In this document: positions 3,102 through 15,213 of the stretch, in pieces
How positions within the stretch are numbered: position 1 is the first letter of the stretch
Layout: every line of letters begins with the position of its first letter
NCBI GenBank assembly: GCA_029258795.1
Contig: JAPDKB010000002.1
Coordinates: 124,001 to 188,000 of the forward strand
Direction: 5' to 3'
From: an archaeon
GTDB taxonomy: Archaea > EX4484-52 > WAPT01
DNA length: 64,000 nucleotides
Program-made: the position numbers and the translations under genes
Notes under the pieces: model-generated
Seen by the model: only the letters and a program-made list of their open reading frames with translations
The model's database searches: none
Told to the model about the DNA's origin: nothing

Positions 3102-3389
3102 CTATTTAAGCACTTCCCTCACCACATCAACAAAATCCTGTACGGAAGCGCCCACAACAACAACATCCGTAGAAGAGAACCACTTTTCAACAGCTTTTCC
3201 GACCTCGCTTACGTTCACCCCTTTGAGAAAGTTCTCCAGCTCCACTATTTTCTCTTCAGGATGCATGAAGAAATCTCCGGTTATCCTGATATCCTCGATC
3301 TTGTCGTCATCAACAACAACCCTAACCCTTATTAGTTTACCTCCAGCAACCTTTTTCTCAGCTCTTTTTTCTACCTCCAAAAGTTCCAC
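3102..3389 (-). CDS. lplB: Lipoate-protein ligase accessory subunit (LplB, C-terminal domain)
   Basis: This 95-residue protein matches the separate C-terminal domain of lipoate-protein ligase: AEKKVAGGKLIRVRV, then DDKIEDIRITGDFF and the HPEEKIVELE helix. In Thermoplasma acidophilum the ligase is split into LplA and LplB and both are needed to adenylate lipoate and transfer it. The GTG start lies inside the 3' end of lplA (about 19 bp overlap), so translation is probably coupled. It is the last gene of the operon that also encodes a lipoyl acceptor protein. Confidence 0.85.
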   Translation of the reverse strand: MELLEVEKRAEKKVAGGKLIRVRVVVDDDKIEDIRITGDFFMHPEEKIVELENFLKGVNVSEVGKAVEKWFSSTDVVVVGASVQDFVDVVREVLK

Positions 3390-4153
3390 CCCCGTGTTGA
3401 GTACTTTTCGTTATAGAGCTTCTCAGCAAGCTCCAGCTCGTAAGGAGTGAGCTTTCCATCCACGAACCTGACTCCAAGCACATCTTCAAACGATTCTCTC
3501 ATCAAGCTTGAAAATTCATCGAAGGACGGCACGTAGCCCAACTGCTCTTTTACCGTGGTCACCACCCTTTTAAGATCATCCACAACCTTGTCCTTAAGCT
3601 TTTCCCTGCTTATTTTCAGCACGTTGAGCATCGTATCAACATCGAAATCCAGCAGAATGGTGCCGTGCTGAAACACCACACCTTTCTTGCGGGTTTGTGC
3701 GTTGCCCGAGATTTTTCTGCCCGCAACCACCACATCGTTCACGGGCCTGAACGAAGCATCCATACCCAGCTTTTTGAGCGCATCGATTATCGGCTGACAC
3801 AACACCCCGTATGATGTAACGATATCCCTCAGCTCGGGCATGAAGTTCTCCGGAATAATGATCGAATAGTTCAGCTCGCCTTCCGGATACTTGTACACGG
3901 CTCCACCCCCCGTCATCCTTCTGAAGATTCTTATGCTGTGCTGCACACAGTACTCCACATTCACCTCCTCCTCCACACTCTGAAAGAATCCGATTGCTAC
4001 AGCCCTTTCCGGCCACGGATGAATGTAGAGGGAAGGCATGCTTTTGCCTTCGGCAACAGCAATCATCACAGCTTCATCTACAGCCATCTGATGGTACGAA
4101 TCCTTTATTTCCGGCAGCTCCACAAATCTGAAGGACGGCAAAGCCATACACAT
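3371..4153 (-). CDS. lplA: Lipoate-protein ligase large subunit (LplA)
   Basis: This enzyme attaches lipoate through lipoyl-AMP to a lysine of a carrier protein in the cytoplasm. The approximately 260-residue protein carries the ligase signature RRMTGGGAVY (the RRxTGGGAV lipoate-binding loop), ELNYSI, and NDVVVAGRKISGNAQ with the catalytic-type lysine. The C-terminal domain is missing from this chain and is supplied by lplB downstream, as in Thermoplasma. The start is ATG 4153 (or 4147), overlapping the end of the upstream flavoprotein gene. The likely substrate is the H-like lipoyl protein in the same operon. Confidence 0.92.
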   Translation of the reverse strand: MCMALPSFRFVELPEIKDSYHQMAVDEAVMIAVAEGKSMPSLYIHPWPERAVAIGFFQSVEEEVNVEYCVQHSIRIFRRMTGGGAVYKYPEGELNYSIIIPENFMPELRDIVTSYGVLCQPIIDALKKLGMDASFRPVNDVVVAGRKISGNAQTRKKGVVFQHGTILLDFDVDTMLNVLKISREKLKDKVVDDLKRVVTTVKEQLGYVPSFDEFSSLMRESFEDVLGVRFVDGKLTPYELELAEKLYNEKYSTRGWNFWR

Positions 4154-5526
4154 CACTTCAGTTCAAGCTTCTTTCTGCATGCCATTGCAAGTTTTTCCAC
4201 TATGTGGAACACGTCCGAAACGAGCGGGTGGTAGTTGAACATGTACTCCTCCACATCGTAAACGCTGGCTCTGTTTCTTATCATCACACTAGCAAGATTC
4301 AGCAGTTCCGGAATGACCATGCTTCTTCCCGCTGCCTGTAGGCCGAGAAGCTTACCATCTTTACCAGAGCACACGAGCTTTACCACCTCCCTACCCTTAC
4401 CGCGTGTCGTTGAACTTACCACATAATCGAAATGTGCTCTGGCATCTTTCTCCGTGAGACCGCACCCACCAAAATAAAACCCGTCAAGCACGCTTATCCA
4501 GTTCTCCAAGAAGCCCGCATATTTCACGCTTTTCTCTCCACCGATTATTCTTGCAAGCATCATGGCTTGTTTTGCTGCAGATGGTGCAAATTTTGAGAGC
4601 GCACGTTTGCCAGTGAGAAAATGCGTAACCTCGGCACAGTCCCCGCATGCGTAAACAGAAGGGATATTCGTGCGGAACTTATCATCAACAATTATCCCCA
4701 CATCACATTCTATACCCGCCTTTCTAACCATTTCCAGATCGGGAACGAAGCCGGTGCAGTTAACTGCAAAATCAACCTTCAGCTTCTTCCCTCCTTCAAG
4801 CAAGACACTCCCATCCTTTATCCCCAGAACCCTCACACCCGTTACGACCTCCACACCCCCTCTAACCTTTTCTTCCACAACTTCCGCAATATTACTATCG
4901 AGCAAAGCGGGCAATATCGTGGGCTGAGCTTCAACCATCACAACTTTCAGTCCCCTCTTCTTCAGAGCCTCGCTCACCTCAAGTCCGATGAGACCGCTCC
5001 CAATGATTGCAACACTCTCGCTGTTACCAGCAAGTTCAATGATCCTGTCCGCATCCCTGACATTCTGAAGTTTGGTTAGAGGAACGGAACCATCGTGCTG
5101 GAGCTTTATCTTCGGCTTGGTGGCTCCGACACAGAGACAAAGAACGTCGTAACCTATTTCTCTATTCTTGCCATCGCTTTCTTCCGTTTCCACCTTAACG
5201 ATCTTCTCCCCAACGTCTATTTCTCTCAACTTCGATCCCAGCGCAACCTCAATTCCCTTCGAATTTATATCCTCCACTCCAAATCTGAAGAGATCTTTTC
5301 TGCTAACCTCTCCGGCTATATAATACGGAAGAAGGCAGGGCGAAAAGCCTATCTCATTACGCTCATTCACCAGCGTAACCTCAAACTTTCCCCGCTTGGC
5401 AAGCTCCAGAGCAAGGGTTATCCCCGCAACACCCGCGCCAATAACCACAACCCTTTTCCTGCTGAAGTTATCATCCCTTCGCATAATTTCCTTTCCCCTC
5501 GAATTCATTGAGCGCTTCCATGACAT
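4153..5526 (-). CDS. CoA-disulfide-reductase-like FAD/NAD(P)H oxidoreductase
   Basis: A two-dinucleotide-fold flavoprotein: FAD-binding GAGVAG at about residues 30-35, a second fold with AIIGSGLIGLEV near 170, and the VYACGDCAEV FAD motif near 300. A single active-site cysteine occurs in GFSPCLLPYYIAGEV (Cys64 in the longest frame), the hallmark of CoA disulfide reductases, NADH oxidases and NAD(P)H:persulfide reductases. The paired cysteines of dihydrolipoamide dehydrogenase are absent. So it probably handles a mixed disulfide or persulfide. The real start may be internal, near MRRDDNFSRKR. It overlaps ahpD by 56 bp at its 5' end and lplA at its 3' end. Confidence 0.85.
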   Translation of the reverse strand: MSWKRSMNSRGKEIMRRDDNFSRKRVVVIGAGVAGITLALELAKRGKFEVTLVNERNEIGFSPCLLPYYIAGEVSRKDLFRFGVEDINSKGIEVALGSKLREIDVGEKIVKVETEESDGKNREIGYDVLCLCVGATKPKIKLQHDGSVPLTKLQNVRDADRIIELAGNSESVAIIGSGLIGLEVSEALKKRGLKVVMVEAQPTILPALLDSNIAEVVEEKVRGGVEVVTGVRVLGIKDGSVLLEGGKKLKVDFAVNCTGFVPDLEMVRKAGIECDVGIIVDDKFRTNIPSVYACGDCAEVTHFLTGKRALSKFAPSAAKQAMMLARIIGGEKSVKYAGFLENWISVLDGFYFGGCGLTEKDARAHFDYVVSSTTRGKGREVVKLVCSGKDGKLLGLQAAGRSMVIPELLNLASVMIRNRASVYDVEEYMFNYHPLVSDVFHIVEKLAMACRKKLELK

Positions 5527-5839
5527 GCTGCAAGTACATCAGCGCTGGACCACCGCCCATCAACACGGCAACCCATGCCGCCTCCAGAATCTCTGCTCTC
5601 GTTGCACCGGCGTCCATTGCGTTCTTAACGTGCAGAACTATGCACGACTTGCACTGCGATTTCACGGCAAGCGCTACGGATATGAGTTCCTTCACCTTTT
5701 TTGAAAGTACGCCATCCTTCTCGCACACCTCCAGCAAATTCTGAAATGCTTCCCAGTGCTCAGCGTTTTCTTTCCCTATCAATCCGATGTTTCTGATAAT
5801 CTTTCTCATGAGATCTTCATACTCTCCCATTGCAACCAC
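5471..5839 (-). CDS. AhpD-like carboxymuconolactone-decarboxylase-fold disulfide protein
   Basis: A 122-residue all-helical AhpD-family protein. The redox motif is intact: Glu51, then Cys63 and Cys66 in SQCKSC, and His70, matching the AhpD proton-relay arrangement. AhpD proteins accept electrons from a dihydrolipoyl protein and pass them to a peroxidase; in mycobacteria the chain runs Lpd, lipoyl-SucB, AhpD, AhpC. Here the gene sits directly between a lipoyl-domain gene and a flavoprotein disulfide reductase gene, which supports the same kind of relay. No AhpC peroxidase is in the window. Confidence 0.85.
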   Translation of the reverse strand: MVAMGEYEDLMRKIIRNIGLIGKENAEHWEAFQNLLEVCEKDGVLSKKVKELISVALAVKSQCKSCIVLHVKNAMDAGATRAEILEAAWVAVLMGGGPALMYLQHVMEALNEFEGKGNYAKG

Positions 5840-5852
5840 CTCAATTCGATAC

Positions 5853-6251
5853 TCACCCTTCAGCGAGCATTCTTCTTTTTTCTTCCGCAGTATGAAGCGC
5901 TTTCAGCTCCCCCTCATTCTCAAGCTTAACCTTCATTATCCAGCTTCCATATGGATCGTGGTTTATGCGCGAGGGCTCGTCAAACAGCTCCTCATTGACA
6001 TCAACTATCTCTCCGCTTACAGGGCTTGAAATATGCCCGCTCCACTTTATCGCTTCAAGCGAAACGTACACATCACCTTTTTTTATCCTTTTTCCTTTTT
6101 CCGGCAGTTTTACGAACACAAACTCATCAACTTTTTTCACCGCCGGCTCAATTAATCCGACGCTAACAACACCATCTTTCTCAACCTTCACCCACGAGTA
6201 CTCATCATCGTAGAGCAGGTCTTCGGGCAGGTTGAACTCTCCGCTCATCAC
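5853..6251 (-). CDS. Lipoyl-carrier protein, GcvH/LbpA-like
   Basis: A 132-residue H-protein fold. The lipoylation hairpin is SLEAIKWSGHISSPVSGE with Lys69 aligned to the lipoyl lysine of glycine cleavage H protein (ESVKAASDIYSPVSG), and the C-terminus has INHDPYGSWIMKV like the family PYG-x-GW motif. No glycine cleavage P or T genes are in the window. Its neighbours are thiol-redox proteins and a dedicated lipoate ligase, so a role as a redox or sulfur carrier (as for LbpA of the sulfur-oxidising sHdr system) is more likely than glycine cleavage. It overlaps the upstream gene by an ATGA junction. Confidence 0.85.
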   Translation of the reverse strand: MMSGEFNLPEDLLYDDEYSWVKVEKDGVVSVGLIEPAVKKVDEFVFVKLPEKGKRIKKGDVYVSLEAIKWSGHISSPVSGEIVDVNEELFDEPSRINHDPYGSWIMKVKLENEGELKALHTAEEKRRMLAEG

Positions 6252-7834
6252 GACTCACCCTTTCTTTTCATTTTCATGCTCTCTTTTTTATTTTTACTTG
6301 CACCGCCACTCTTTTCTTTATTTTTCTCTCTATCTTTGCTTTCCTTTTCCTGTCCTTTCACAATACCCAGCTTGAGAGACACGAGAGCGATGATAAGAGC
6401 AAGCCCTATCGCTCCAAGGAGAATAGCTACAGAGGTCAGCACGTTAGTGAGCAAGTTTGGATTGATGAGCAGCACCAGACCCAGAGCGAGCATCATCATG
6501 CCTGAAATGAGTTTCAACACTCTTCCCTGAAATTCGGTGAGCTTTCTCGCCCCCAAGGTCAGTGTGAAAGCAATCACGATCATCGCAAGAGGAATGACAT
6601 AGACAATGTTGTAAAGCACGAGGTAAGCATAATAATGGAGTGTGGGTAGCTCTCTTAGAGTGAGGATTCTTGTGAAGAGCATGGGGAAACCGGCTGTGCA
6701 CAGCAGCTCGTAGGTGTTTGCTGAAACCGCGAGCACGATTGTTCCCGCAAGCATGGCGGGCAAGGATTCAGATTTGAGGAGTTGTCTCATCCTTTTGAAG
6801 AGCTTTGGCTTTGCGCTCTCCGGAATGGTGAGCGAAACACCCTTCTTAAACGCAAAGAAGTCCTTTATGTTGATGAGAGCCATGACGACAGCCACCAATC
6901 CAGCTATCGTGGTGATGAAGGACACGCTGCCAGCTATCAGGAAAAAGTTGAGCCAAGCAGCCATGAAAAGGAAGTATATAAATCCGGAAAAGAAGACAAA
7001 AACACCACCTATCAGCAGCATTCTTTTGCGGGAGTTGGCATAGATGAGCATGCTCAGCAGGAAAAATAGCACGAAGAACGCACACGGGTTTATGCTGTCC
7101 AGCGCGCCCAATATGATCGTTATTAGCACCAAGCTTGAGGTTTGGGGGTTAAGGGAGGAAAGAAGAGGGACTTTGTTGAACTCGTTCCTGAGCTGGGAAA
7201 ACGGCGCTGAAATATTTGTACTTACATTTTCTTCCGTGCTTGGTGTACTCCACTCCTGCTCTTTCGCGATTTTTCCCGTTTCCTCATATTTTTTCAACAC
7301 CTCAAGTGGTGAGGGGCAGCCGTTTTTCAGACAAGAGACAATCATGCTTTCAATCTTGGTTCCTGTGGTGGAATCATCTCCGTATCCCACAACAGGATCG
7401 AACGTGCCTATGAATGTTGTGGGCACGCCCATGGCCTTCGTGCCATAAGCGACGGCCATTTTTTGAAAAAGAACAGCATTCGTTCGGTTATACCATACCT
7501 CCATATAATGTACTTTAAGGTAGGGCGCGTATTTTTCTTCAAGCTTCTGCAGGAATGGCTTCTCTTTTGCACAGTGCGGACAGCCATTACCCCAGAAGAA
7601 ATACACTTCTATGTAATGAAAAGATTGTGAGGTGGGTGAAGCTGTTGTGGTTGCGTGTTCGTTCTGCTCTGCTTTTGTAGGAATCTTCAAGGTGCAGGTT
7701 GTGGAGGAGGAAGTTGAAACGGAACATGTAGCTGCGGTGGGCTGAATAGAATGGCTGAATCCCAAGCTTGCACTCGCTATGAACACCAGAACGATTAAAG
7801 AGAGTATTGCCGGCAGAGAGATTTTGGTCTGCAT
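6248..7834 (-). CDS. Membrane thiol transporter: thioredoxin domain fused to CcdA/DsbD core
   Basis: 528 residues. The order is signal anchor (about 5-25), Thr/Ser-rich linker, thioredoxin-like domain with WGNGCPHC (Cys85/Cys88) and a cis-Pro region MGVPTTF, then a polytopic CcdA/DsbD-like domain of about six or more segments from 232 to 490, and a Lys/Glu/Ser-rich cytoplasmic tail. The two membrane cysteines expected for this family are visible: Cys251 in DSINPCAFF and Cys379 in TYELLCTAGF. The family moves reducing equivalents across the membrane. DsbD normally has its thioredoxin domain at the C-terminus; here it is N-terminal and probably extracytoplasmic. First gene of the lipoyl redox operon. 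Confidence 0.85.
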   Translation of the reverse strand: MQTKISLPAILSLIVLVFIASASLGFSHSIQPTAATCSVSTSSSTTCTLKIPTKAEQNEHATTTASPTSQSFHYIEVYFFWGNGCPHCAKEKPFLQKLEEKYAPYLKVHYMEVWYNRTNAVLFQKMAVAYGTKAMGVPTTFIGTFDPVVGYGDDSTTGTKIESMIVSCLKNGCPSPLEVLKKYEETGKIAKEQEWSTPSTEENVSTNISAPFSQLRNEFNKVPLLSSLNPQTSSLVLITIILGALDSINPCAFFVLFFLLSMLIYANSRKRMLLIGGVFVFFSGFIYFLFMAAWLNFFLIAGSVSFITTIAGLVAVVMALINIKDFFAFKKGVSLTIPESAKPKLFKRMRQLLKSESLPAMLAGTIVLAVSANTYELLCTAGFPMLFTRILTLRELPTLHYYAYLVLYNIVYVIPLAMIVIAFTLTLGARKLTEFQGRVLKLISGMMMLALGLVLLINPNLLTNVLTSVAILLGAIGLALIIALVSLKLGIVKGQEKESKDREKNKEKSGGASKNKKESMKMKRKGES

Positions 7835-7895: not shown

Positions 7896-7919
7896 TGATT
7901 TGAGATGATATTTGCAGAA

Positions 7920-8906
7920 ATGTACGAACCAAGGCTTGATGAGATTCTCGAATTGCTGAAGAAAAATGTGAATCATGGCAGCAGGGTGTTTCTGCAGCTT
8001 CCGGAAGGACTGAAGAAAAAAGCACAGATAATAGTAGAGGGAATTGAAAAGAAAGGTTATGAAGTGGTTGTGGACATAGAACCGTGTTTTGGAGCTTGCG
8101 ATGTTCCTGTGGCAAGAGCTAAGGTGGAGGGTTGCGATGTTGTTCTTCATCTGGGGCACACGCCCATTCTGGAGCTTGATTCTCAGATAAAAGAAATGCA
8201 CGGCATTAAGGTGGTATACTATCCCGTCCATGCTATAGTGGACTTAACACCTCTGCTTGAGAGGGCTGCGGGTCTTTTGGAGAGAGGGTCAAAAGTTAGT
8301 GTAGCGACAACCATCCAGTTCCACCACGTGCTGGAAAGCATAACCGAAGAGCTTAAAAAGCAAGGTTTCACGCCCTTGATAGGAAAGAGTGCGAGAACCG
8401 GTCTGGAAGGCGTGGTTCTGGGCTGTGATTATGCCGCGATGAAGAAGATGGATGGGGAAGTAATGTCACACCTTTTCATTGCGGGAGGAGAGTTCCATGT
8501 AAAGGGTGCGATTAGAGAGGTGAACAAGTCAATTGTACACATTAATCCTGAGAGAAATGAAGTCAAGTTGATTGGAAAGGAAGAGAGGGAAAAGATCATG
8601 AGAAGGGAAATGTTGCTAGTGGAGAAGTTCAAGGAAGCGGAAAAGATAGGCATATTGACCTCCACCAAGCTCGGGCAGAGGTTCGGAGATCCATTTAAGG
8701 TTAAGAGGGCTGTGGAGAAGCTGGGCAAAAAATGCTTCGTCCTGAGTGGAGATTTGATCAGCAGAGAGAAGCTGGAAGGTTTGGATGTTGATTTTTATAT
8801 AATACTGGCTTGTCCGCGTCTGGAAGAAGATACCACCATATTCAGTGCTCCTGCCATCGCATGGGGCACTCTAGTTAAACATTTAAAGATTACAGGTATT
8901 GATTAA
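7920..8906 (+). CDS. dph2: Diphthamide biosynthesis enzyme Dph2
   Basis: Archaeal Dph2 is a [4Fe-4S] radical enzyme that transfers the 3-amino-3-carboxypropyl group of S-adenosylmethionine onto a histidine of elongation factor 2. The protein has the three cysteines that hold the cluster: EPCFGACDVP near residue 56, VLGCDYAA near 165 and ILACPRLEED near 285, one in each repeated domain. Length matches the family. The ATG at 7920 lies about 28 bp from a TATA element and would be leaderless; an ATG at 7905 in the same frame is possible. It is divergent from the redox operon. Confidence 0.92.
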   Translation: MYEPRLDEILELLKKNVNHGSRVFLQLPEGLKKKAQIIVEGIEKKGYEVVVDIEPCFGACDVPVARAKVEGCDVVLHLGHTPILELDSQIKEMHGIKVVYYPVHAIVDLTPLLERAAGLLERGSKVSVATTIQFHHVLESITEELKKQGFTPLIGKSARTGLEGVVLGCDYAAMKKMDGEVMSHLFIAGGEFHVKGAIREVNKSIVHINPERNEVKLIGKEEREKIMRREMLLVEKFKEAEKIGILTSTKLGQRFGDPFKVKRAVEKLGKKCFVLSGDLISREKLEGLDVDFYIILACPRLEEDTTIFSAPAIAWGTLVKHLKITGID

Positions 8907-10550: not shown

Positions 10551-11978
10551 ATGATGACAAAAGTACAGCCTCTTCGGGAATTCATTCAGGATGTTCGGGC
10601 AGGAAATGTTGATGAGGAGGAGTTCCTGCACAGCGTTATGGAAGCTTGTAGCAAGCTTGATGAGGAGTATGAGCCGTTCATAACTCTCAGGAATGTAGAA
10701 GAGGTGTTAGAGGAAGGTAGAGGTTTGCTAAAAACTAAAGGAAAGATGCCTCTCGTACCCTTCAGCGTGAAGGACAATATATGTACCGCTGGTGTTAGAA
10801 CCACCGCCGGTAGCAAAATATTGCACGACTACATTCCGTTTTTCGATGCCACCTGCGTTAAAGCTCTCAAGGATGAAGGTGCTGTTCTGATAGGCAAAAC
10901 CGCCACAGACGAGTTCGGATTTGGCACTTTCTGCACCAACTGCGCTTTTTGCACACCTAAAAATCCGCACGACAAGAGCAGGGTTTGTGGCGGTTCTTCC
11001 GGAGGAGCTGCATGTATAACAGCATTGGCGTCATTTCCGCACGTTGCAATCGCTGAAAGTACCGGCGGTTCTATAGCGTGTCCCGCAAGTTTCTGTGGAG
11101 TGTTCGGTTTCACCCCCACTTATGGTGTTGTGAGCAGGTACGGGCTGGTGGATTACGCTAACTCACTGGATAAAATAGGTCTGATGGCGAAATATATTGA
11201 TGACATCATGCTCGCATTTGAGTTCATATCCCGCAGGGATGAGCGTGATTCCACATGCGTTGGACTTGATAAGGAAGATCACGACATAACTCTTGAGAGG
11301 ATTACACTCGGGATTCCGAAAGAGTTTGTGGAAGCTGTAACGGATGAGAAAGTGCTGAAGACCTTCCAGAGCTTTGTGAAGAAGCTTGAGGGAAACGGCG
11401 TCAACATCGTTCAGGTGAGCATTCCATCCGTGAAATACGCTCTTGCAGCTTACTACATAGTTGCAACGGCTGAAGCTTCCACCAATCTAGCGAAGTTCTG
11501 CGGGATGAGGTACGGCTATGAGAAGAATCCGGAGGGAAAGCATTACAACGAGTATTTCAGCGAGGTGAGAAGCGAAGGTTTTGGGGAGGAGGCAAAACGA
11601 AGAATCCTCTTGGGTACATTTGCAAGGATGGCCGGTTACAGAGATGCTTACTACCTGAGAGCCTTGAAGGTCAGAACACTTGTGATCAGAGAGTTTGAGA
11701 AAGCTCTGAAGAATGCGGACTTTTTGCTGGCTCCAACTATGCCTGTACTTCCTCCACGTTTTGAAGATGTGAAGGAGATGAGCCCTGCCGAAGTTTACGC
11801 CATGGATGTGCTCACCGTGCCCGCCAACTTTGCTGGCTTACCTCACATTTCCCTGCCGTGCGGAAGCGTCGCTGGACTTCCGGTTGGGGTGCAGCTGATG
11901 GGCAGGCACTTTTCCGACTGGAAAATGCTTTCTCTGGCAAAAATAATGGAGGAAGCTGAACTCACGCATTCCTTCTGA
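10551..11978 (+). CDS. gatA: Aspartyl/glutamyl-tRNA amidotransferase subunit A
   Basis: The amidase subunit that releases ammonia from glutamine. The amidase-signature triad is intact: Lys74 in FSVKDNI, the cis-Ser around 150 in VCGGSSGGAA, and the nucleophilic Ser174 in ESTGGSIACPA. A 475-residue length fits the family. In archaea GatABC is mostly used for Asn-tRNA because GatDE handles Gln-tRNA; GatDE and AsnS are not in view, so the physiological substrate is open. It converges on the 1083-residue surface protein with a 17-bp overlap of 3' ends. Confidence 0.93.
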   Translation: MMTKVQPLREFIQDVRAGNVDEEEFLHSVMEACSKLDEEYEPFITLRNVEEVLEEGRGLLKTKGKMPLVPFSVKDNICTAGVRTTAGSKILHDYIPFFDATCVKALKDEGAVLIGKTATDEFGFGTFCTNCAFCTPKNPHDKSRVCGGSSGGAACITALASFPHVAIAESTGGSIACPASFCGVFGFTPTYGVVSRYGLVDYANSLDKIGLMAKYIDDIMLAFEFISRRDERDSTCVGLDKEDHDITLERITLGIPKEFVEAVTDEKVLKTFQSFVKKLEGNGVNIVQVSIPSVKYALAAYYIVATAEASTNLAKFCGMRYGYEKNPEGKHYNEYFSEVRSEGFGEEAKRRILLGTFARMAGYRDAYYLRALKVRTLVIREFEKALKNADFLLAPTMPVLPPRFEDVKEMSPAEVYAMDVLTVPANFAGLPHISLPCGSVAGLPVGVQLMGRHFSDWKMLSLAKIMEEAELTHSF

Positions 11979-14900
11979 GCAGGAGTATAAGTGTGGACAT
12001 GACCATCACAGCCATGAGTTGTACGAGCTCTATTCCCGGAGCTTGTGTTTCTGCTCCTTCTGCAACCAGCTCCTTAAAGTTTAGAGTTACGTCTGCAACT
12101 TGTTTTTGAGATGTGCTCCAGCTGGTTGCAGTGATTTTTAAAATACACGATGGTTTGGTTGGATCGTAGACTGGCGTATAGACCTTGACAGGAATCCTCG
12201 TGATTTTGCCTGGAGGAATTGTGAAGCTCGTCTCTTTCTCGTATGGTGTGCCTTCATAACCAGCAAACCACGCTCTCACAAACTTGGAGCATCCTGAAGT
12301 ATTCAGTTTGAGGTCTATTAACTCATTAAATGTGTTGGGGTTTTTTATAGTAACAACGAGCCTCTTTTCAACACCTACTGTAATGTCTAGATTAGATGTT
12401 ACTATAAGTGAAGCCGACTTCGGCACGGAAGCGGATTCTACGCATTTAGACCTCACACAGCTTCCTGTTGCACAATCGCTTGATGTGCTGCATTTACAAT
12501 CTTTATCAGCCTGAACTTTGATGTCAAGGGCAGTGTAGTTCTTGTTGCCTGCTTTGTCCCATGCAACAATATAATATTCTTTGGTTTCTGAAGTACATCT
12601 ATCTAACGATATTTTACATACCTTGTCCTTGTCTACCTGATACTTCCATTCACAAATCACCTGATCGCAGTTGGGTGTAGGACACACTCTTATAATATCG
12701 ACCCCGCTCTTCCCGACGGTCGGCGATGTCTCATTATCATAGACATCCTCCACATTTGGATATTTGAAGGTGATGACCCACACTCTACTCACATCATCAA
12801 ATGTGAGGTTGTATGCTGTTTCAGGGCTGTGAATCACCGGAGGAAGCACATCCGGCAGGAAGAGCGACTCTCCCTTATAAGTATTTGCTTCACACACATA
12901 GCCCTGCCCGTTCTCGTCAAATACCAGTGTACCCTGATGTACTTGCTTAACGAGAGGCACACCGGTAGCTATCTCCACATTTTCATCACCATCAGGAGCA
13001 CTTTCGCACTTCCAGACAGTATGGAACCCTTTATAACCTGAAGCCGCACTTGCATTGCATGCGTAACGTCCGGCAGGTAGTTCTGCAGCAAGGCTATCTG
13101 GTGTGTCATCACCTATCTTTTCAATTTCATGCGATACCCAATGCTCACCATCCTTACATGAGCGATACACTGGAATGGGTTGCTTAGATTCGATATGACC
13201 CAGTGCACTATCGAGACCCTTTGAGTTATAAAGCTTTTTCGCATCTTCAGCCAAAAAATTATTCGCTGGTCCAAAACCACAGAGAGCAACCTCGTAATAG
13301 TTTCCAGTTTTACCGTTCACTTCAAGTGTTACGGGATTCATCAAACATTCCTCCCAGTTATATATGCATGCTGCAAGCACAGCAGGATCGAGACCTGCGA
13401 GCTCACCATAATTCCAATTTATGTTTGCCATCTGTTTCACGTCGCAGGTAGTATTTATGGTCAATGTCAGATTAACCATATCTATATTTAACGAACAATC
13501 ATACCCTACCGTTATGTTAACATGTATAGATGCGTCACTTCCATACTCTATTTTGTACTTATCTGGCACGCAGGTAAATTTTGGAGTATCACAACCTGCA
13601 GGTTCCACGTTGAATGCTTCCAGAACTTCCGTGGTGGATGGTTTGGGCATATCGCTACTCAGCACTTCTTCAAGATCGTCTGAACTCTTAATTGAAGTAT
13701 AAAACTCCGATGCATTTTCAAAGCCATACTTTGTTACATCAACATTAGAAAGCTTTACTTCGATATCTTCTCTTTCTAGAACATCCGTAAGTTCTCCTCT
13801 AAAAACGACATCGTCTAGTTTTTCACTACAAATTTGGTCAGAGTAGAAAGCAAAATCTGCAACCGTTTCCAAAACGCTTAAAGTATCTTCCTTATTGGCA
13901 TTATAAGCGTCAACAAGATCTGACGCGTCGCATATTTCCATCCCGTTAATTTTTGGTATGTCGAAAACAGAGAGGATTACATTTGTTTTCCTTTGTCTGG
14001 TTGATGTGCCAGATAGTTGTTGAGGAGTCACTTGTTCATTCACACCGATTAAGAAGTCCTGAGAATAAAACACTCTATTATATCCATCTCCCACGACCAA
14101 TCCCGGACCGGTAGTCACGGATACGCTACCCCACCCACCGTCTGGTTCCGGTGCTGTGAGGCTCTTACGAGCCACAACATTTTCTATACCCTGTCTTAAT
14201 CTCTTTCTGAAAGCCCACGCCCTGTAAGCATCAACTTTCCAGCTTAAATTATAGTACTTTTTGAACACTTTCTGCGTGTCTGGAATTTTCAGTCCAAGCA
14301 TAGGATGGGATAAAGTTACACTTAAGTTTTTGTGTCTAGCGTAAATTCCAGTGAGAATGCTTTCAACTCCACCGCTCTCATTTACAAGGCTCACTTTTAC
14401 TCTCATCATAGGAATCCTGTTCTGACACGCCTGTATGAAAGCGTTAAAAGTAACATTGACAGTCTCGTTGGTGAGTGGCCATCCCGGAATCAAGGAGTCC
14501 ACACCACCCGGATTAAATTCAAACGTCAGCTCCGGATGCTTGGTAATACCACGCATTAACAGCCAGTAACCAAAAGTAGCACATCCTTTACAGTAATTAA
14601 ACTCATTGTTATATTCCCAGGGTTCTATCCACGCTTCTGGACTGTCACATGTGGGGTTACTATCGACTATACACATAAATTTGTTCGAGCTCGAAGCAAA
14701 TTGTTGTGTTGTGGTTGTTGCACTAGAACTAGATGAGGATGACGCAGATGCTGTATTATCTATGACTTCCCACACATCACATGTTGGGGGGTTGGCGCAC
14801 TTAACCTCTGCCCATTCAGCACAAGTCGGCGGATCTGCACAGCCGCTTACAGGTTTCCCGCTCCCGTCCGTGACATTTAATAATTTACCCTCCTGCCCTT

Positions 14901-15213
14901 CTACCCATTTCCAATTAGTTACGTAGGTGCCACCATGCCAGTCGCGCCTCTCATAACTCCAACACAGATAGCCATTACATTTAATACACAATCTTAGTGT
15001 GCCCTCACTGGTAGTGCCGGCAGTAGAATAAAGTGCGTTTTCAGGACAGATTCTGGCATCTGAACAGTCCCTGGTGTCTATTACGTTAACTAAGCTACAT
15101 AGAGATTGAGGGTTTTGCTTAACACATTTATCTGCAAAAACCTGCGAGACGAGGTGTGTATACATTATACCTGCAATCAACATTGTTAAAATAAAGACTC
15201 TTATCTTTCTCAT
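11962..15213 (-). CDS. Large secreted, C-terminally anchored cysteine-rich protein
   Basis: 1083 residues. A signal peptide runs to about residue 28 (cleavage near SQVFA-DK) and a single C-terminal membrane segment ends in LLLRRNA. The N-terminal third holds repeated Cys motifs, DPPTCAEW, NPPTCDVW and SNPTCDS, and a Ser/Thr linker (about 155-172). Another Cys motif, DCATGSCVRSKC, comes near 960, before a probable Ig-like beta domain (about 980-1060) with evenly spaced hydrophobic strands. I recognise no enzymatic domain. A role in the cell envelope or as an adhesin is inferred. It lies 3 bp after the 454-residue protein gene and is surely cotranscribed with it. Confidence 0.8.
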   Translation of the reverse strand: MRKIRVFILTMLIAGIMYTHLVSQVFADKCVKQNPQSLCSLVNVIDTRDCSDARICPENALYSTAGTTSEGTLRLCIKCNGYLCWSYERRDWHGGTYVTNWKWVEGQEGKLLNVTDGSGKPVSGCADPPTCAEWAEVKCANPPTCDVWEVIDNTASASSSSSSSATTTTQQFASSSNKFMCIVDSNPTCDSPEAWIEPWEYNNEFNYCKGCATFGYWLLMRGITKHPELTFEFNPGGVDSLIPGWPLTNETVNVTFNAFIQACQNRIPMMRVKVSLVNESGGVESILTGIYARHKNLSVTLSHPMLGLKIPDTQKVFKKYYNLSWKVDAYRAWAFRKRLRQGIENVVARKSLTAPEPDGGWGSVSVTTGPGLVVGDGYNRVFYSQDFLIGVNEQVTPQQLSGTSTRQRKTNVILSVFDIPKINGMEICDASDLVDAYNANKEDTLSVLETVADFAFYSDQICSEKLDDVVFRGELTDVLEREDIEVKLSNVDVTKYGFENASEFYTSIKSSDDLEEVLSSDMPKPSTTEVLEAFNVEPAGCDTPKFTCVPDKYKIEYGSDASIHVNITVGYDCSLNIDMVNLTLTINTTCDVKQMANINWNYGELAGLDPAVLAACIYNWEECLMNPVTLEVNGKTGNYYEVALCGFGPANNFLAEDAKKLYNSKGLDSALGHIESKQPIPVYRSCKDGEHWVSHEIEKIGDDTPDSLAAELPAGRYACNASAASGYKGFHTVWKCESAPDGDENVEIATGVPLVKQVHQGTLVFDENGQGYVCEANTYKGESLFLPDVLPPVIHSPETAYNLTFDDVSRVWVITFKYPNVEDVYDNETSPTVGKSGVDIIRVCPTPNCDQVICEWKYQVDKDKVCKISLDRCTSETKEYYIVAWDKAGNKNYTALDIKVQADKDCKCSTSSDCATGSCVRSKCVESASVPKSASLIVTSNLDITVGVEKRLVVTIKNPNTFNELIDLKLNTSGCSKFVRAWFAGYEGTPYEKETSFTIPPGKITRIPVKVYTPVYDPTKPSCILKITATSWSTSQKQVADVTLNFKELVAEGAETQAPGIELVQLMAVMVMSTLILLLRRNA

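Follow-up and report, generated by a model that had tools for sequence, protein, structure and literature searches.

Analysis of a 64,000-nucleotide stretch of archaeal DNA (hereafter the window; lineage EX4484-52, WAPT01, assembly GCA_029258795.1, contig JAPDKB010000002.1, positions 124,001 to 188,000) revealed a cluster of six genes in which a lipoyl carrier of the GcvH fold and its own lipoate ligase are encoded together with a two-cysteine membrane protein, an AhpD-like protein and a flavoprotein. The cluster is shared by archaea and bacteria whose genomes, where searched, hold neither a GcvT nor a 2-oxoacid dehydrogenase E2 (the P protein of glycine cleavage was not searched). We consider it fairly probable that the cluster encodes a self-contained, lipoyl-based transmembrane thiol relay with the GcvH-fold protein as its dedicated carrier.

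Architecture of the gene cluster

A first-pass annotation of the window had described six overlapping or near-contiguous minus-strand genes at 3102-7834. All six open reading frames are open and intact at these coordinates, and their junctions are coupled. In the order of transcription they are:

6248..7834, minus strand, membrane thiol protein of 528 amino acids, thioredoxin fold by Foldseek, core family uncertain
5853..6251, minus strand, GcvH-fold lipoyl carrier (GCV_H), lipoyl-lysine codon 6045-6047 within LEAIKWSGH
5471..5839, minus strand, AhpD-type CMD protein, E51-C63-X2-C66-X3-H70
4153..5526, minus strand, CoA-disulfide/persulfide-reductase-like FAD-NAD(P)H oxidoreductase, single redox cysteine C64 with codon 5335-5337
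3371..4156, minus strand, LplA, catalytic subunit of lipoate-protein ligase, LplA-B_cat 3e-49
3102..3389, minus strand, LplB, small subunit of lipoate-protein ligase, NF053749 above cut-off

TGATG overlaps are found at two junctions, that of the flavoprotein with LplA and that of the membrane protein with the carrier, where the carrier ATG at 6248 overlaps the stop codon of the upstream gene. The carrier and AhpD genes are separated by a short gap, the genes for LplA and LplB overlap, and the overlap between the AhpD and flavoprotein genes is 15 nucleotides if the ATG at 5485, the probable start of the flavoprotein, is used. With starts and stops overlapping or nearly in contact, the layout is thus that of one translationally coupled operon. 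The ligase is split in the window, catalytic LplA and accessory LplB being separate subunits. The residues on which the first-pass annotation had relied (the lipoyl-lysine hairpin, the Glu/Cys/Cys/His set of AhpD, the paired membrane cysteines and the single cysteine of the flavoprotein) were all located in the sequences.

Conservation and spread

A search for AhpD in 394 archaeal genomes gave loci in which the membrane protein, an H-like protein, the flavoprotein and LplA were neighbours. Five H proteins from these loci were aligned and then used for a genome scan, which yielded 12 loci, all of them with the cluster: six from Woesearchaeota, one each from Forterrea multitransposorum, an Iainarchaeum bin and an unclassified archaeon, and three from bacterial bins. 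In Forterrea multitransposorum (Iainarchaeota) the cluster lies on a complete chromosome. An H-profile search of 371 genomes from the phylum of one of the Woesearchaeota, in which the membrane gene was not used, added seven cluster genomes. About 11 loci in this search had the carrier beside the membrane protein, against 9 loci of H proteins with glycine-cleavage motifs (ESVKSVSD-type and similar), none of which stood beside the membrane protein. In total, the cluster was found in 22 genomes including that of the window (21 others), from both domains, a recurrence well beyond what chance would give.

In all 20 genomes in which the contig is long enough to show it, the gene for the membrane protein is directly upstream of that for the carrier. 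LplA is encoded in 19 of the 22 clusters, the flavoprotein in 15, AhpD in 14 and LipA in 8; a separate small thioredoxin, usually lipoprotein-like, is present in 5, and a winged-helix protein with two transmembrane (TM) helices in 11. In S145 and CG08, LplA and the flavoprotein are on a second contig. The gene order is near-constant: (TM-winged helix) - membrane protein - carrier - (thioredoxin) - (AhpD) - (flavoprotein) - (LipA) - LplA - LplB, with the variable genes in brackets. As AhpD and the flavoprotein are frequent and not universal, the core of the system consists of the membrane protein, the carrier and the ligase.

The first-pass annotation had proposed to look for the same cluster in other archaeal genomes. 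It is present there, conserved far beyond one genome, and it is not confined to archaea, as three bacterial metagenome-assembled genomes have it as well (bins of Patescibacteria and Vogelbacteria, both of the Patescibacteria type, and one labelled Mollicutes). The bacterial contigs also hold homologues of UvrA, RelA/SpoT and ParB, as read from their sequences, so that the occurrence of the cluster in both domains seems genuine, allowing for the caution that bins always call for. Neither an H protein nor AhpD was found in searches of the two genus-mates of the window genome and all the same-order genomes listed. This patchiness among its relatives suggests horizontal transfer, by which the carrier was probably acquired.

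The lipoyl carrier and the absence of its classical clients

The lipoyl-lysine hairpin of the carrier reads SLEAIKWSGHISSPVSG, the lysine being Lys68 when counted from the ATG at 6248 and Lys69 from the GTG at 6251. The protein matches Pfam GCV_H (1e-35) and the GcvH structure 1zko (2e-32) and passes the broad subfamily model NF002270, and it falls below the gcvH equivalog TIGR00527 (104 bits versus a cut-off of 115.85). The arm lysine is invariant in the cluster carriers, and 19 of the 22 have the arm motif LE..KW(S/T/A)G; GcvH arms read E(S/A)VKA(A/V/T)S(D/E), and the H proteins of archaeal glycine cleavage systems ESVKSVSD. In a tree of 44 H proteins, one branch, found in 97% of bootstrap trees (96/79), splits the cluster carriers from all others. 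The nearest relative of the window carrier is a patescibacterial one, with 62% identity (96/82).

ETGKWVG arm motifs were also seen in other archaeal H-like proteins outside the cluster (L009, L011, L008 and L016). The idea that any orphan archaeal H protein belongs to this system was rejected: the H proteins of Thermococcales-like and other archaea are orphans or part of glycine cleavage, and lack the cluster.

The window genome (1.17 Mb, 96% complete) has a single H protein, and the same holds for all 15 cluster genomes tested, each with exactly one H protein, that of the cluster. No 2-oxoacid dehydrogenase E2 and no GcvT was found in the window genome or in any of the 15, with positive controls in each search. 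The remark in the first-pass annotation that no glycine-cleavage or dehydrogenase genes were in view therefore holds genome-wide for GcvT and E2. The window genome has no CCG/Hdr proteins, and only 3 of the 22 cluster genomes have any. LipA, where present, sits inside the cluster. In two of the bacterial genomes, G395 and G402, the cluster flavoprotein is the only Pyr_redox_2 protein, so that no thioredoxin reductase was seen there, the incompleteness of these genomes being a caveat.

AhpD and the flavoprotein

The AhpD-like protein matches CMD (7e-18), scores above the cut-off of TIGR00778, and has 5dik as the closest solved AhpD. Its catalytic set is E51/C63/C66/H70, of which the two cysteines and the histidine are kept in 13 of 13 cluster sequences. 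The spacing, E-X11-C-X2-C-X3-H, matches the one in mycobacterial AhpD. AhpD also adjoins LplA in other, unrelated archaeal loci (L087, L088, L090, L071, L074, L075, L077 and L078), and in three of them (L087, L088 and L090) it stands beside lipoyl E2-type genes. This company gives independent support for a link between AhpD and lipoyl proteins.

The flavoprotein matches Pyr_redox_2 (9e-54). Its nearest family is CoA-disulfide reductase (TIGR03385), and with 228 bits it lies far below the equivalog cut-off of 578.8. It has the two-dinucleotide fold, its nearest folds being the CoA-disulfide and NAD(P)H persulfide reductases 3icr, 8a56 and 6pfz, with which it shares the single redox cysteine, kept in 14 of the 15 cluster flavoproteins. 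In contrast to these enzymes, it has no rhodanese domain and is encoded in a lipoyl-carrier operon. In one genome, that of the Woesearchaeon CG08, it is fused to LplB (L178:1898-3574, 558 amino acids), residues 2-442 being CoA-disulfide-reductase-like and residues 470-553 LplB (E 1.8e-15). Such a fusion is a Rosetta-stone link, not easily accounted for if the flavoprotein had nothing to do with lipoyl chemistry. A scan of viral contigs with the flavoprotein found no relative.

The membrane thiol protein

The membrane protein is predicted to start with a signal or TM helix, followed by a thioredoxin/glutaredoxin-fold domain on the extracytoplasmic side. This domain carries GCPHC (C85, C88) and, in addition, a CX4C pair (C168, C173), and its CXXC is kept in 12 of 12 cluster proteins that have the domain. 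The multi-TM core holds two cysteines, in NPC251 and C379TAGFP, both invariant in the 14 aligned proteins. DsbD and CcdA likewise have two membrane cysteines and an extracytoplasmic thioredoxin-fold domain, fused or separate, and transfer thiols from the cytoplasm to the outside, which by analogy is presumed for the cluster protein. Unlike them, the cluster protein is paired with a lipoyl carrier and its ligase, not with thioredoxin, and no significant match in sequence or fold links its core to theirs. The core resembles CcdA in design, with membership of the DsbD/CcdA family statistically unproven.

A relative of the membrane protein is encoded on a plasmid of the cyanobacterium Pseudanabaena under the name 'glutaredoxin family protein' (L188:1803-3711). 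It is the closest annotated plasmid-borne relative; a DsrE-family gene immediately precedes it, and katG lies downstream.

Proposed relay

From these features we infer the following sequence of events. LplA and LplB would attach lipoate to Lys68 of the carrier, the lipoate being imported or, in some relatives, made by the co-encoded LipA. NAD(P)H would reduce the cytoplasmic single-cysteine flavoprotein, and this the lipoyl disulfide of the carrier. The dihydrolipoyl arm may then reduce the membrane cysteine pair of the CcdA-like protein, in the role that thioredoxin has for DsbD and CcdA, and from there the electrons would go on to the extracytoplasmic thioredoxin-fold domain of the same protein (GCPHC) and, in some relatives, to the small thioredoxins. 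AhpD, where present, could be an optional side-branch or a thiol adaptor between the carrier and its partners, by analogy with mycobacterial lipoyl-SucB and AhpD. An outward, reductive direction, towards a presumed substrate outside the cell, is favoured because of the analogy to DsbD and CcdA and because the NAD(P)H enzyme is cytoplasmic.

Several observations weigh against this proposal. Pfam DsbD (PF02683) does not match the membrane core even at E=10, a PDB profile search did not recognise it as DsbD or CcdA, no CcdA was among the top Foldseek matches (for a model of medium confidence, with a predicted local distance difference test score, pLDDT, of 73), and hhalign against DsbD gave an insignificant E of 0.07 with both cysteines in register. 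The name of CcdA/DsbD core in the first-pass annotation is borne out by motif and topology, as a likeness and not as a proven family assignment. The flavoprotein is missing from 7 of the 22 loci and has phenylalanine in place of the redox cysteine in L171 (5225-6565; YSQFDLPY), so it may not be the universal reductase of the system; most cluster genomes other than G395 and G402 also have a thioredoxin-reductase-like protein. No recognisable LipA was found in the window genome, and no true LipA in seven other cluster genomes, so that these organisms would need external lipoate or a putative LipS1/LipS2 pathway. In G352 and G751 the carrier is a shorter, biotinyl/lipoyl-like protein in which MKGT replaces KW, the carrier domain having apparently been exchanged within the same slot. 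Finally, correlations of pairwise distances between the cluster proteins are positive and modest (r 0.18-0.51), which indicates that the genes largely travel together and that some parts have been exchanged. The dedicated lipoyl relay suggested by the first-pass annotation is upheld in part: it withstood those of that annotation's refuting conditions that were examined, as GcvT and E2 are lacking in 15 of 15 genomes and the cluster is conserved, and the flavoprotein-LplB fusion fits it. It needs correction in that the cluster also occurs in bacteria, AhpD and the flavoprotein are not universal, and the CcdA/DsbD core is a resemblance.

In the G751 locus (L175:7529-8561), the membrane thiol protein precedes a biotinyl/lipoyl-like carrier of 91 amino acids and a flavoprotein of the FNR type, and LplA is not encoded nearby. 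It looks like an exchange of carrier and reductase within the same system.

Alternative explanations

The main rival to the outward relay is its reverse, in which disulfides, persulfides or polysulfide from outside would pass, as thiol or persulfide equivalents, through the membrane protein to the lipoyl arm and the flavoprotein would release sulfide. It takes this place because the flavoprotein resembles persulfide reductases in its nearest folds (3icr, 8a56 and 6pfz) and the cyanobacterial relative of the membrane protein is encoded beside a DsrE gene; in addition, GCPHC is a DsbA-like motif, and the lipoyl protein LbpA handles sulfur in sulfur oxidisers (PMC6067878). However, the rhodanese domain is missing from the flavoprotein, genes for TusA, DsrE and rhodanese did not recur in the clusters in a recurrence test, and 19 of the 22 genomes lack a CCG protein of the Hdr type, so we think this inward flow of sulfane sulfur unlikely.

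Alternatively, the flavoprotein, carrier and AhpD could form a cytoplasmic lipoyl-dependent (alkyl hydro)peroxide reductase, comparable to mycobacterial Lpd-SucB-AhpD in the destruction of peroxides, with the membrane protein as a separate, co-regulated thiol exporter. The intact catalytic set of AhpD and its closeness to 5dik fit such an enzyme, the link between AhpD and lipoyl proteins is known (PMC8945050), and a peroxiredoxin-like gene adjoins the cluster in G260. But AhpD is absent from 8 of the 22 clusters, whereas the membrane protein is never absent where the contig shows the place and its adjacency to the carrier never breaks. This reading, too, appears improbable to us.

An identity of the H protein with LbpA of the sulfur-oxidising heterodisulfide-reductase (sHdr) pathway, which likewise is GcvH-like and comes with ligase genes of its own (PMC6067878), is very unlikely, as no cluster contains hdr genes and the CCG domain occurs in only three of the genomes, that of the window not among them. 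We reject, as having hardly any chance of being right, a role of the H protein as GcvH or as lipoyl donor for a 2-oxoacid dehydrogenase encoded elsewhere: the carrier does match Pfam GCV_H and the GcvH profile, but GcvT and E2 are absent from all 15 genomes with positive controls (P protein not searched), and both the arm motif and the tree position differ.

Neighbouring genes

The winged-helix protein adjoins the membrane thiol protein in 11 clusters. It has two TM helices with a cysteine in the short loop between them and a C-terminal winged helix (DUF7343/TrmB/MarR-like), and is a candidate for a membrane redox-sensing regulator. It was not found beside the cluster in the window. Its positions are:

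L082:8834-9292, two-TM winged-helix protein
L083:3892-4341, two-TM winged-helix protein
L084:2239-2742, two-TM winged-helix protein
L086:4357-4890, two-TM winged-helix protein
L102:5532-6143, two-TM winged-helix protein
L104:5834-6361, two-TM winged-helix protein
L106:5589-6044, two-TM winged-helix protein
L109:5455-6432, two-TM winged-helix protein
L111:6230-6715, two-TM winged-helix protein
L172:8048-8530, two-TM winged-helix protein
L173:244-789, two-TM winged-helix protein

The only other recurrent neighbours are Dph2-like genes, at three loci and in the window, and these are probably incidental. In three Woesearchaeota, short open reading frames of 79-81 amino acids that resemble the N terminus of Dph2, with CFG(A/P)CDVP, lie downstream of LplB; a full-length Dph2 gene in the window (7905-8906) is divergent from the cluster. 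The association is possibly a coincidence, or possibly reflects a split Dph2.

L104:13841-14086, short Dph2-like open reading frame
L109:11267-11506, short Dph2-like open reading frame
L179:4722-4967, short Dph2-like open reading frame

Near the cluster, the minus strand of the window (11962-15213) also encodes a cysteine-rich, secreted-looking protein of 1083 amino acids, which is conceivable, purely as speculation, as an extracytoplasmic disulfide client.

Comparison with known systems and implications

Besides DsbD/CcdA and the CoA-disulfide and persulfide reductases, three known systems come close to the cluster in part. The Lpd - lipoyl SucB - AhpD(-AhpC) system of Mycobacterium tuberculosis (Bryk 2002, as related in PMC8945050) likewise combines a flavoprotein, a lipoyl carrier and an AhpD with the same Glu/Cys/Cys/His set. 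The carrier of the cluster, however, is a dedicated GcvH-fold protein and not an E2, its flavoprotein is a single-cysteine, CoA-disulfide-reductase-like enzyme and not Lpd, and the operon includes a membrane conduit and its own ligase. LbpA of the sHdr pathway (PMC6067878, PMC10332631) is, like the cluster carrier, a GcvH-like protein outside glycine cleavage with dedicated lipoate ligase genes, but the cluster has the membrane thiol protein and the flavoprotein instead of Hdr genes. The operons of GcvH-L, LplA2 and SirTM with a macrodomain protein (PMC4518038) also lie outside glycine metabolism and join a GcvH-like protein to an oxidoreductase and a lipoate ligase of its own; the cluster lacks the sirtuin and the macrodomain, and differs in carrier motif and partners.

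We found no description of the cluster in the openly searchable literature, subscription papers and preprints being outside that search. Its parts are of known kinds, and the combination of a lipoyl carrier, a ligase and a transmembrane thiol protein without recognised lipoyl-dependent metabolism appears undescribed. Apart from LbpA in sulfur oxidation and the sirtuin-linked GcvH-L, lipoic acid is known for practically one role, that of the swinging arm in complexes for dehydrogenation of 2-oxoacids or for glycine cleavage.

We give an even chance to the broader proposal that the cluster stands for a transmembrane thiol-reducing system of a new class. In it, a dedicated, lipoylated GcvH-fold protein, and not thioredoxin, would charge a two-cysteine conduit from NAD(P)H. 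This class would be shared horizontally among small-genome archaea and bacteria, many of which have no LipA and thus would need the lipoate of others, and may be under the control of the membrane winged-helix protein as redox sensor.

The question would be amenable to experiment, with a single membrane protein and five or six small, soluble ones. Organisms whose genomes are very small and lack the usual lipoyl complexes have kept or acquired a lipoate ligase and a carrier, apparently for thiol chemistry outside the cell. If true, this would account for the lipoate genes in some genomes of DPANN and of the Patescibacteria type, and would provide these organisms with an extracytoplasmic reducing pathway and lipoate with a further non-metabolic role.

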